Shown: positions 22,153 to 39,825 of the stretch, in pieces
Position numbering within the stretch: position 1 is the stretch's first letter
How the letters are laid out: each line of letters begins with the position of its first letter
DNA from: Gluconobacter kondonii
GTDB lineage: Bacteria; Pseudomonadota; Alphaproteobacteria; Acetobacterales; Acetobacteraceae
Assembly: GCF_002723995.1 (NCBI RefSeq)
Contig: NZ_BEWP01000001.1
Span: forward strand, 372,001-436,000
Length of the DNA: 64,000 bases
Direction: 5' to 3'
Made by a program: the position numbers and the translations under genes
Notes under the pieces: generated by a model
Databases searched by the model: none
Told to the model about the DNA's origin: nothing
The model's input: the letters and a program-made list of their open reading frames with translations, nothing else

Positions 22153-22407
22153 ATGAAGACCCTCGCAAAACCCCGTTTTCTGGCAGCTTTGGCCCTTTGC
22201 GGCGTTGCTCTTACGGGATGTGGCGATCCCTATAACAGCGGCTCCCGTGCCGGGTCCGGCGCCCTGATCGGCGCAGGTGGTGGTGCGGCAATCGGCGCTC
22301 TGGCGGGTGGTGGCCGTGGTGCGCTCATCGGTGCGCTGGCTGGCGGCGGCACGGGGGCCGCAGTTGGGGCCGCGACAACGCCCAACCGCCCGCGCAACGG
22401 ATATTGA
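22153..22407 (+). CDS. Small glycine-zipper lipoprotein (first of two paralogues)
   Basis: An 84-residue protein with a lipoprotein signal peptide: the basic start MKTLAKPR, a hydrophobic core and the lipobox LTGC with the lipidated Cys at about residue 23. The mature part is almost entirely a glycine-zipper repeat (GALIGAGGGAAIGALAGGG), predicted to insert in or span a membrane, and ends TTPNRPRNGY. AGGA lies about 9 nt upstream of the ATG. A closely similar gene follows within 50 nt. It resembles the SlyB/Rickettsia 17-kDa glycine-zipper class in general style, but a function cannot be named. Confidence 0.8.
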   Translation: MKTLAKPRFLAALALCGVALTGCGDPYNSGSRAGSGALIGAGGGAAIGALAGGGRGALIGALAGGGTGAAVGAATTPNRPRNGY

Positions 22408-22454
22408 GCTATAAGCAACGCTCACTCCGTGAGAGACGATCAAGGATTCGGACT

Positions 22455-22955
22455 ATGAGGACCGCTTTTTCCCATACTGGCCTGCGCTACACGGCGCTGG
22501 TCGGAGCATTTGCCACGATCATGGCTCTGGGTGGATGTGAGGGGAACTACAACCCTGGCTCCCGCGCACTGGGAGGCGGCCTTTTAGGCGGCGGAACAGG
22601 TGCGGCGATCGGCGCGCTGGCTGGCGGCGGTCGCGGCGCGGCGATCGGCGCTCTGGCAGGCGGTGTTCTGGGTGCCGGTGCAGGTGCGATCACCACACCC
22701 AACCGCCCCAGTTCCCAAAGCGGCTATGGCCAGCAACAGGGCTATTACAACAATCAGCAGGGCGCTTACCCGCAACAGCAGGGTCAGTACATGCAGCCGC
22801 AGTATCAGTGCCCGCCAAACACGAACTGCCAGCAGCCGCAATATCCTAATGGATATCCGAACAATACCTACCCGCCCAATAGCGGATATTCCCAGCAGGG
22901 TGGCTACCAGCAGCAACCCACATCCCAGAGCTATCCGGGCAATTACGGCTACTAA
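22455..22955 (+). CDS. Glycine-zipper lipoprotein with Gln/Tyr/Pro-rich tail (second paralogue)
   Basis: A 166-residue protein whose first 80 residues parallel the preceding gene: signal peptide, lipobox LGGC, N-Y-N-P-G-S-R-A after the Cys, a glycine zipper (GAAIGALAGGGRGAAIGAL), then TTPNRP. It adds a C-terminal 85-residue low-complexity tail rich in Gln, Tyr, Pro and Asn with a CPPNTNC pair of cysteines. The start is the ATG at 22455 with AAGGA at 22442-22446; an open frame upstream overlaps the first gene and is not needed. Probably co-transcribed with, and duplicated from, the first gene. Envelope function inferred only. Confidence 0.8.
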   Translation: MRTAFSHTGLRYTALVGAFATIMALGGCEGNYNPGSRALGGGLLGGGTGAAIGALAGGGRGAAIGALAGGVLGAGAGAITTPNRPSSQSGYGQQQGYYNNQQGAYPQQQGQYMQPQYQCPPNTNCQQPQYPNGYPNNTYPPNSGYSQQGGYQQQPTSQSYPGNYGY

Positions 22956-23914: not shown

Positions 23915-25486
<1,572 letters not shown>

Positions 25487-25506
25487 GATTGTGATCGTCT
25501 CGTCTG

Positions 25507-25581
25507 GTTCAGGGTGGCTTTCGGTCTGTTATCCCCTGAACGCAACGGAGCGCTGTCCGCCTAGGATAAGGCGTTCAGGGG
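25507..25581 (-). promoter_or_regulatory. Attenuator-like three-arm leader structure upstream of leuA
   Basis: On the transcript (minus) strand three arms occur in order. Arm A is CCCCTGAACGC (25581-25571), arm B is GCGTTCAGGGG (25543-25533) and arm C is CCCTGAAC (25514-25507). A pairs with B over 11 perfect bases, and B pairs with C over 8, so the two hairpins exclude each other. Arm A contains the stop codon of the putative leader peptide, and arm C ends about 20 nt before the leuA ATG. No T-run follows either hairpin, so control of translation start is at least as likely as termination. Confidence 0.6.
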
Positions 25582-25619
25582 CCGATAAGTCGAAGCGAGA
25601 GGATCGAAAGAAACGTCAT
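25575..25619 (-). CDS. Putative leuA leader peptide (14 residues, Leu/Ile-rich)
   Basis: A short open frame, MTFLSILSLRLIGP, runs from the ATG at 25619 to TGA at 25577-25575. Four of 14 codons are Leu and two are Ile. The last Leu codon sits just before arm A of the pairing structure, and the stop lies within arm A. This is the layout of amino-acid-responsive leader peptides. Against it: no clear Shine-Dalgarno precedes the ATG, and short frames with several Leu codons can arise by chance. Confidence 0.5.
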   Translation of the reverse strand: MTFLSILSLRLIGP

Positions 25620-25695
25620 GGCTGCGTTAAATGACCGATTCTTGCGCCATGCGCAACCCGCATGATCATAAAGTCTCCCCCGCGCACAAAGCGGG

Positions 25696-26523
25696 TCAGC
25701 CCGTCATGACGCCGGAATGCGTTGCGAAATAACGGTCTATGGCGGTTTTCATGGCACTGGCGACCTGTGTGCGATGCACCGCCTGACGCAGGGCGGCCTC
25801 ATCCAACCGGTTGGACATGAACCCCATCTCGACCAGAACCGATGGAATCTCGGAAGATTTCAAAACCACGAACGCCGCATGACGTGACGGATGGGTCAGC
25901 AGTCCGATCCTGTTCCGGAACGAATTAACCACACTGGCCGCCATATGCGCCGACCCCCGCCGCGTTTCTTCCGAGACGAGGCTCGCGAGAATCTGCTGCA
26001 CATCGGGCGACATCCCATGAAAGGCCGGTCCGGCAAAGCGATCGGCACTGTTCTCCGTCCGTGCAAGGGATGCTGTCTGCGCGTCCGACGCCCCGCCTGA
26101 AAGTGTATAGACGCTCGCGCCCCGCACATCCCTGTCATGCAGGGCATCGGCATGCATGGAAATAAAGAGATGCGCCTGATGCCGTTGCGCCAGTTCGACA
26201 CGTCCTTCAAGCGGAATGAACCGGTCTTCGGAACGTGTCATGGCAACACGGTACTGACCCGAAGCCAGAAGCTGGCGGCTCAGTTCGGAAGCTGCGGCTT
26301 CGGCAATATGCTTTTCATAGGTACCGGAAACCCCGATGGCGCCAGGGTCTTTGCCGCCATGTCCGGGGTCTAGCATCACGAGAGGTTTCGGGGGCGGAGC
26401 CCCACGATGCACAGCGGGAGCGTGCAGCTTTGCGTGATCCGGGTGACGTCCGAAGGCTGTCAGAGGCGTCAGCAGAGACACTCCCGAAAGACCGCCGAAA
26501 GCCAATATGCGTCGCGTCAGCAT
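25696..26523 (-). CDS. N-acetylmuramoyl-L-alanine amidase (amidase_3, Tat-type signal)
   Basis: This zinc amidase cleaves between MurNAc and the stem peptide, typically during daughter-cell separation (AmiA/B/C group). The catalytic domain starts around PLVMLDPGHGGKDPGAIG, giving the first zinc-ligand His. ISMHADA gives the third ligand, and LVEMGFMSN the catalytic Glu. The N-terminus LTRRILAFGGLSGVSLLTPL looks like a twin-arginine signal, as in E. coli AmiA/AmiC. I chose the ATG at 26523 so that the signal is N-terminal; the Shine-Dalgarno AAGGG is unusually close, so a start further upstream (ATG at 26565) remains possible. It is divergent from rne. Confidence 0.85.
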   Translation of the reverse strand: MLTRRILAFGGLSGVSLLTPLTAFGRHPDHAKLHAPAVHRGAPPPKPLVMLDPGHGGKDPGAIGVSGTYEKHIAEAAASELSRQLLASGQYRVAMTRSEDRFIPLEGRVELAQRHQAHLFISMHADALHDRDVRGASVYTLSGGASDAQTASLARTENSADRFAGPAFHGMSPDVQQILASLVSEETRRGSAHMAASVVNSFRNRIGLLTHPSRHAAFVVLKSSEIPSVLVEMGFMSNRLDEAALRQAVHRTQVASAMKTAIDRYFATHSGVMTG

Positions 26524-39748: not shown

Positions 39749-39825
39749 GGACCTGTAGCTCAGCTGGATAGAGCGTTGCCCTCCGAAGGCAAAGGTCACG
39801 CGTTCGAATCGCGTCAGGTCCACCA
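39749..39825 (+). tRNA. tRNA-Arg (anticodon CCG)
   Basis: A complete 77-base cloverleaf. The acceptor arms GGACCTG and CAGGTCC pair perfectly, the D arm is AGCTCAGCTGGATAGAGC, the anticodon stem TTGCC/GGCAA encloses the loop CTCCGAA with anticodon CCG, and the T arm contains GTTCGAATC. The CCA end is encoded. It reads the Arg codon CGG. An AT-rich glycosyltransferase gene begins about 100 nt downstream on the other strand. Confidence 0.96.

Follow-up and report, generated by a model that had tools for sequence, protein, structure and literature searches.

The stretch of DNA analysed here, hereafter the window, comprises 64,000 nucleotides of a Gluconobacter kondonii contig (NZ_BEWP01000001.1, positions 372,001 to 436,000). 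Its minus strand carries an open reading frame for a 2-isopropylmalate synthase of 523 aa (leuA, leuA_bact type; 23915..25486), whose ATG lies at 25486. The protein scored over the NCBIfam cut-offs of TIGR00973 leuA_bact (656.9 bits vs 598.7) and NF002087 (837 vs 729); it is of the TIGR00973 type, with a score far under the TIGR00970 cut-off. Upstream of leuA and on the same strand lies a leader frame of 14 codons, ATGACGTTTCTTTCGATCCTCTCGCTTCGACTTATCGGCCCCTGA (25619-25575), which encodes the peptide MTFLSILSLRLIGP and contains two Ile and four Leu codons: CTT at 25610-25608, CTC at 25601-25599, CTT at 25595-25593 and CTT at 25589-25587. The Leu-Arg-Leu codons belong to the conserved core CTTCGACTTA (25586-25595), and relative to this core the Leu codons are found at -21, -12, -6 and 0. 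The stop codon of the leader (25577-25575) falls inside arm A, CCCCTGAACGC (25571..25581), which is complementary at 11 of 11 positions to arm B, GCGTTCAGGGG (25533..25543), its partner in an inner hairpin. Arm C, CCCTGAAC (25507..25514), is an alternative partner of B with 8 of 8 complementary positions; 20 nt separate its end from the leuA ATG. These features of the leader and the arms, together with the lack of a T-run at either hairpin, had been described in the initial annotation, and all of them were confirmed at their positions when the window sequence was re-checked. When the whole window was compared with Rfam 15, the only match at gathering score was a tRNA gene on the plus strand (39749-39822), with nothing at the leader; the 2201 bases around leuA, scanned at E values up to 10, likewise gave nothing at gathering score. 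Elsewhere in the window, the frames 22153-22407 and 22404-22955 contain similar glycine-rich stretches (GALIGAGGGAAIGALAGGGRGALIGAL... in the first) and are possibly a tandem duplication.

The proposal that a Leu-rich leader peptide precedes leuA was borne out by comparison, as the frame is kept in relatives. In a set of 132 representatives, chosen so that the leader window was <80% and the start window <70% identical (ungapped) to those of earlier ones, the Leu fraction in the eight codons preceding CTN CGA CTT was 0.366 in the leader frame vs 0.046 and 0.030 in the other frames; CTN CGA CTT itself is fixed by the search pattern and was excluded from this value. When the fixed codons were also counted, the fractions were 0.482 vs 0.131 and 0.019, and CTT (341) and CTC (177) were the commonest Leu codons of the leader. 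The subset fetched through the LeuA protein (n = 41) gave 0.390 vs 0.061 and 0.034. The leader frame ended +12, +18 or +21 nt from the core in 89, 39 and 4 of the 132 representatives, respectively, a distribution partly biased toward +12 to +21 by the CCCT[GA] inside the search pattern. Judged from these sequence comparisons, the leader is a genuine coding frame and its Leu enrichment is specific to that frame. At four loci (L056, L059, L060 and L063) another Leu codon was seen in place of the core Arg codon CGA, which speaks for the Leu content and not for a fixed peptide. We also considered a proline-stop arrest peptide, as many of the peptides end with R-L-x-x-P-stop and the C-terminus looks conserved, but this is disfavoured by the 39 leaders of the P-W-A type with a stop at +18 and the 4 with a stop at +21.

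A promoter pattern TTG-(16 to 18)-TANNNT closely preceded the leader ATG in 57 of the 172 records with an in-frame ATG, compared to 5.4 expected from shuffles. When several ATGs qualified, the one nearest to 7 nt was chosen, in data and shuffles alike. The -10 element ended 6-9 nt before the leader-frame ATG in 48 of the 57 promoter-bearing records, and with ordinary promoter spacing this places the transcript start no more than a few bases from the ATG. Thus, on the comparison of sequences, the transcript probably begins at the leader ATG, i.e., the leader is leaderless. Within 25400-25800 of the window no consensus promoter-like site was detected and only the -35 half is recognisable. This putative -35, TTGCGC (25651..25656, minus strand), is assigned by its position and by the enrichment of the pattern in relatives, and spacing would put a degenerate -10, TCATTTA (25628..25634), 8-9 nt before the leader ATG. 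Going by this spacing, the window's own transcript may be leaderless as well. The degenerate -10 is in keeping with the weak conservation of -10 motifs in G. oxydans described in excerpts of PMC5756330.

To describe the distribution of the leader, LeuA was searched for in 100 relatives and matched at E ≤ 0.001 in 90, weakly so in many cases, and upstream DNA of 70 leuA loci was fetched through the LeuA protein matches. In 63 of these 70 loci a script detected the core upstream of leuA, either as CTTA-N5-CCCT[GA] or in a looser form, core variants were noticed by eye in L031 and L061, and neither script nor eye revealed a core at the other five (L057, L064, L065, L066 and L070). The L070 locus (G038:C1:198400-199300), from a member of the family with a LeuA of only 46% identity, has by eye a different, classical-looking attenuator with a frame of many Leu codons, a hairpin and a T-run (AACCCGCATTTTCAATGCGGGTTTTTT). 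At the level of whole genomes, CTTCGACTTANNNGCCCCTG with ≤2 mismatches occurred in 125 of the 385 genomes of the class, some of these by chance according to reversed-pattern controls. Of 200 Acetobacteraceae genomes, 167 contained the pattern CTNCGACTTANNNGCCCCTGRNC with ≤1 mismatch; among 398 genomes drawn from the phylum there were 11 with this pattern, all belonging to the window's class. Exact copies of CTNCGACTTANNNGCCCCTGRNC were found in at least 119 stretches of a named genome collection. The 80 matches listed included Gluconobacter, Gluconacetobacter, Komagataeibacter, Acetobacter, Asaia, Roseomonas and relatives, as well as Thalassospira, Caulobacter, Azospirillaceae, Geminicoccaceae, Novosphingobium, a Rhizobium bin and unclassified Proteobacteria bins, and none of these 80 bore a title from another class.

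At five loci (L078, L079, L111, L159 and L217, of which L079 and L111 show identical sequence) the leader core precedes a different type of LeuA, marked by a V/TDLRDGNQ motif. Three of them were scanned: L111 and L217 exceeded the TIGR00970 leuA_yeast cut-off, and L159, with an open frame of only 264 aa, matched TIGR00970 below the cut-off. In the comparison of the leader/start duplex with shuffles, L159 was the only one of four tested loci of this type in which pairing surpassed the shuffles (P = 0.002; L078, 0.326; L111, 0.364; L217, 0.500). The occurrence of the same core before two LeuA families suggests, as far as sequence can tell, that lineages exchanged the enzyme but retained the regulator. 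Four further loci with an exact match (L118, L188, L205 and L213) are without leuA and end 41-80 nt past the core start.

The reading of the leader as two hairpins omitted the most important partner, namely the Shine-Dalgarno region of leuA, with which the Leu codons can form a stem. In the window, the 5' strand of this stem (P1), GATCCTCTCG in the Leu-codon stretch (25596..25605, minus strand), has 9 of its 10 bases complementary to those of the leuA ribosome-binding region CGAGACGATC (25493..25502, minus strand), which lies at -16 to -7 before the leuA ATG. In other lineages the leuA start region also finds a partner in the conserved core itself. Both the minimum-energy and the centroid structures predicted for the window RNA contained P1 and, nested within it, A:B. 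The stability of the window fold was only moderate when compared with shuffles (z -1.96, with 10 of 200 as good), and P1 of the window taken alone was not significant (shuffle P = 0.083). In single-genome shuffle tests P1 fell below 0.05 in 6 of 14 cases (L015, L020, L021, L027, L029 and L113) and stayed above it in the window, L022, L023, L024, L026, L028, L030 and L127. The stem was preserved through natural change: GATC/GATC became GGTC/GACC in L021, the strands of L022 are TTTTCGATC/GATCGAAAA, TCGTCT/AGACGA of L023 is CCGTCT/AGACGG in L026, and L027, L029 and L113 have other sequences again. Folds of 12 further hand-picked genomes likewise contained stems joining the leader to the leuA start region; in L140, L149, L180 and L201, for instance, the stem was long and included the core.

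We also examined a MAFFT alignment in which 16 sequences of the genus were combined with 3 from other genera of the family (19 in total). P1 was paired in 78-79% of its cells, a value partly lowered by misregister of MAFFT in some rows. P1 and A:B together were paired in 90.7% of cells vs 35-46% when slid, much of this coming from the nearly invariant A:B. Column shuffles did not set the co-variation of P1 in the genus alignment apart from chance: its score was reached by 162 of 500 shuffles, the number of double-change pairs by 213, the further pair types by 496 and the cells paired by 23 of 500. Since the genus is uniform and the MAFFT rows are shifted in register, this alignment is uninformative on compensatory change in P1.

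The relationship between the two strands was tested across the 132 representatives by pairing every leader window (-40 to +10) with the leuA start window (-50 to +3) of the same representative and with those of all the others. The cognate duplexes averaged -27.19 and the non-cognate ones -24.52 kcal/mol (z -8.29, 0 of 20000 permutations). The controls gave z -1.70 (937 of 20000) for the start window reversed, -0.49 for the start window complemented, -0.58 for the 50 nt of DNA upstream of the leader and -0.02 for leuA codons 2-18. The reversed controls carry a small negative bias, with z values down to -1.88, and those with the leader reversed gave -1.41, -1.88, -1.60 and -0.03. With shorter windows, the effect was retained when permutation was restricted to GC bins (z -6.69) and also in subsets: the LeuA-protein-fetched loci (N = 41, z -5.15), the pattern-fetched loci (N = 80, z -6.26), the leaders with a stop at +12 (N = 89, z -6.95) and those ending in P-W-A (N = 39, z -2.59, 103 of 20000). 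The representatives are phylogenetically non-independent and the permutation figures are not exact probabilities. When 18-nt windows were scanned in two dimensions, the signal peaked (to -5.2) at leader starts -40 to -8 combined with leuA starts -42 to -10, and the slope of this patch is that of an antiparallel helix between the Leu codons and the Shine-Dalgarno region. Elsewhere the scan reached about -2.8, save for -3.9 and -3.2 in one corner, which probably reflects A:B. On this comparative evidence, the Leu codons and the leuA start region have evolved in concert across genomes.

The consequence of P1 for a translating ribosome was modelled by masking a 31-nt footprint codon by codon and folding the remaining RNA at equilibrium, both the footprint and the equilibrium being assumptions. 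The leuA Shine-Dalgarno region (-18 to -5) was predicted to open most with the A site 24 to 6 nt before the core, where the ribosome stands on the Leu codons, by a mean of +0.059 to +0.094, with opening in 42-56 and closing in 6-10 of the 132 genomes. The peak (+0.094; 56 up, 6 down) was at -18. Farther upstream the effect was slight (+0.014 at -39), at +12, the commonest position of the stop, it was smaller than on the Leu codons (+0.037), and a control stretch inside leuA opened by up to +0.044 with the ribosome upstream and was near zero with the ribosome on the Leu codons. In the window, the unpaired probability of the Shine-Dalgarno region was 0.30 in the free RNA, 0.44-0.50 with the A site at -27 to -6, 0.39 at 0, 0.45 at +6, which is past the Leu codons, and 0.33 at the stop. 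The predicted changes are modest, and even at the best positions they were below -0.1 in 6-10 of the 132 genomes.

We consider it fairly likely that this leader is a leucine attenuator acting at the level of translation, its control codons themselves forming the anti-Shine-Dalgarno strand. The frame, its Leu enrichment, A:B, the co-evolution and the promoter spacing come from comparison, whereas the fold and the ribosome-position effect are computed. From these we infer that leuA responds to leucine, in which direction it does so, and what arm C contributes; the direction would probably follow from the modelled geometry. With enough charged Leu-tRNA, a ribosome would pass the Leu codons fast, terminate in arm A and depart, and the vacated Leu-codon stretch could then pair with the leuA ribosome-binding region, leaving little translation of leuA; the hairpin A:B inside the loop of P1 would draw the two strands together. 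Upon leucine shortage, a ribosome stalled on a Leu codon would sit on the 5' strand of P1, which would leave the leuA start free. In some Acetobacteraceae, arm C may allow B to re-pair while the terminating ribosome covers A. Thus, if the model holds, leucine stalling probably frees leuA, and a leader read through to its end lets P1 re-form.

In the initial annotation, the switch had been placed in the two hairpins: a stalled or terminating ribosome would select between A:B and B:C. In such a switch B:C, formed beside the leuA start, would repress leuA. The genus-mates examined have retained the leader frame together with arms A and B; in the 132 representatives, A:B paired at a mean of 9.43 positions vs 7.96 in shuffles (11-nt window starting one base into A), and two inner A:B positions alternate between A-T, G-T and G-C. 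In the genus alignment A:B was invariant except for one position with G-U. Arm C proved the weakest element. In addition to being exact in the window, as are A and B, an uninterrupted complement of B of ≥6 nt within 45 nt was present in 27 of 132 representatives (20%), compared to 6.1% in shuffles, and arm C follows the lineage change of TTCAGG/CCTGAA to CTCAGG/CCTGAG. However, at this length it was not found in the other 105 representatives, and in the genus alignment B:C was paired in 78.3% of cells with zero double changes. In those 27, the gap between the end of arm C and the leuA ATG ranges from 17 to 101 nt (20 nt or less in only 4), and in the minimum-energy fold of the window arm C is not paired with B, three of its bases lying in a local hairpin of 3 bp. 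A choice between A:B and B:C as the general main switch is therefore rejected and considered quite unlikely to be how leuA is controlled, although it may operate as a lineage-specific feature.

Control at the initiation of translation, as had been suggested, is more likely than termination of transcription, as the leader is conserved in relatives and no terminator was found. An intrinsic terminator was looked for and discarded: no terminator-like site was present in 25400-25800, and a T-tract after B (≥5 T in 8) occurred in 7 of 132 representatives. Attenuation of transcription might nevertheless do without one, e.g., if Rho, given access by an untranslated or exposed leader RNA, ended transcription unless a ribosome stalled. 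The Leu-rich leader and the conserved A:B would suit such a mechanism, and excerpts of a G. oxydans RNA-seq study (PMC5756330), whose authors propose transcription termination at some riboswitches, indicate that the absence of an intrinsic terminator is no bar. It is unlikely all the same, given that T-tracts are few and that it leaves the co-evolution of the Leu codons with the leuA ribosome-binding region unexplained. Rho termination and a translational switch could also act jointly, because untranslated leuA mRNA would be exposed to Rho. Alternatively, P1 could be a static stem that sets a low and constant translation of leuA or serves a protein or a small RNA, with the leader peptide not acting as a sensor. 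Published excerpts on the actinobacterial element discussed below give this some footing, as its authors considered a binding protein and mutations in Streptomyces did not fit classical attenuation (PMC1262725). Yet a static stem needs no Leu-rich, frame-specific leader with a stop 12 to 21 nt from the core, and we regard this explanation as highly improbable.

The translational attenuator favoured here shares parts of its design with several known systems. The attenuator of the enteric leu operon (the Leu leader of Rfam) has a leader peptide with Leu codons upstream of leuA, two mutually exclusive hairpins and an intrinsic terminator. A leader with Leu codons and two exclusive hairpins are common to both, but here the terminator is absent and no Rfam match reached the threshold. 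In translational attenuators of the erm type, a ribosome stalled on the leader frees a sequestered downstream ribosome-binding site, and the stalling depends on a drug; in the present case, the stall codons would be Leu codons, which directly form the anti-Shine-Dalgarno strand. In the alphaproteobacterium Sinorhizobium meliloti, excerpts of PMC10117765 describe trpL, a leaderless leader peptide of 14 aa that acts as a transcription attenuator for tryptophan. The position of a leader peptide at the 5' end of a transcript for amino-acid biosynthesis is similar, whereas the leuA leader is without a terminator and its target would be the leuA ribosome-binding site.

Going by its published description in excerpts, the closest known design is the LEU element of Actinobacteria (Seliverstov et al. 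2005, PMC1262725), itself a prediction for which the authors favoured a binding protein. As described there, it likewise lies upstream of leuA, has a frame with a run of Leu codons and a base stem between this run and the leuA Shine-Dalgarno, and shows no obvious terminator. The same excerpts report alternative inner structures on the one base stem; here, B:C is possible in 27 of 132 representatives, with no double change. The two differ in that the LEU element belongs to Actinobacteria and has a conserved interior pseudoknot (PMC1262725, in the excerpts), while the present leader is alphaproteobacterial, with a fixed core CTNCGACTTA and the nested hairpin A:B; the fold programs used cannot show pseudoknots. 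The LEU authors lean toward a binding protein (PMC1262725, excerpts), and we favour the ribosome. A comparable leuA leader was not found in excerpts of studies on S. meliloti (PMC10117765), G. oxydans (PMC5756330), Magnetospirillum (PMC9549626), alphaproteobacterial RNA motifs (PMC1273637) and leader-peptide reinitiation (PMC4833913). More generally, within the open-access literature, which does not include Vitreschak et al. 2004, no published alphaproteobacterial leucine attenuator of such a type was found.

We tentatively suggest, with slightly less than even confidence, that the leader is an ancient and widespread leaderless leucine switch of Alphaproteobacteria, with the sensing codons themselves serving as the masking strand. 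It would stand before two LeuA families (of the TIGR00973 and TIGR00970 types), as if kept through the exchange of the enzyme, and would be a homologue or a convergent twin of the LEU element, whose mechanism it would explain. If true, this would be a very simple amino-acid attenuator: the codons being read lock the next gene, with no terminator and no separate antiterminator, and the sensor and the actuator are the same few nucleotides. The design makes the mode of action of the actinobacterial LEU element directly testable, and the core pattern is an easy aid for annotating leuA starts and the small leader frame in alphaproteobacterial genomes.
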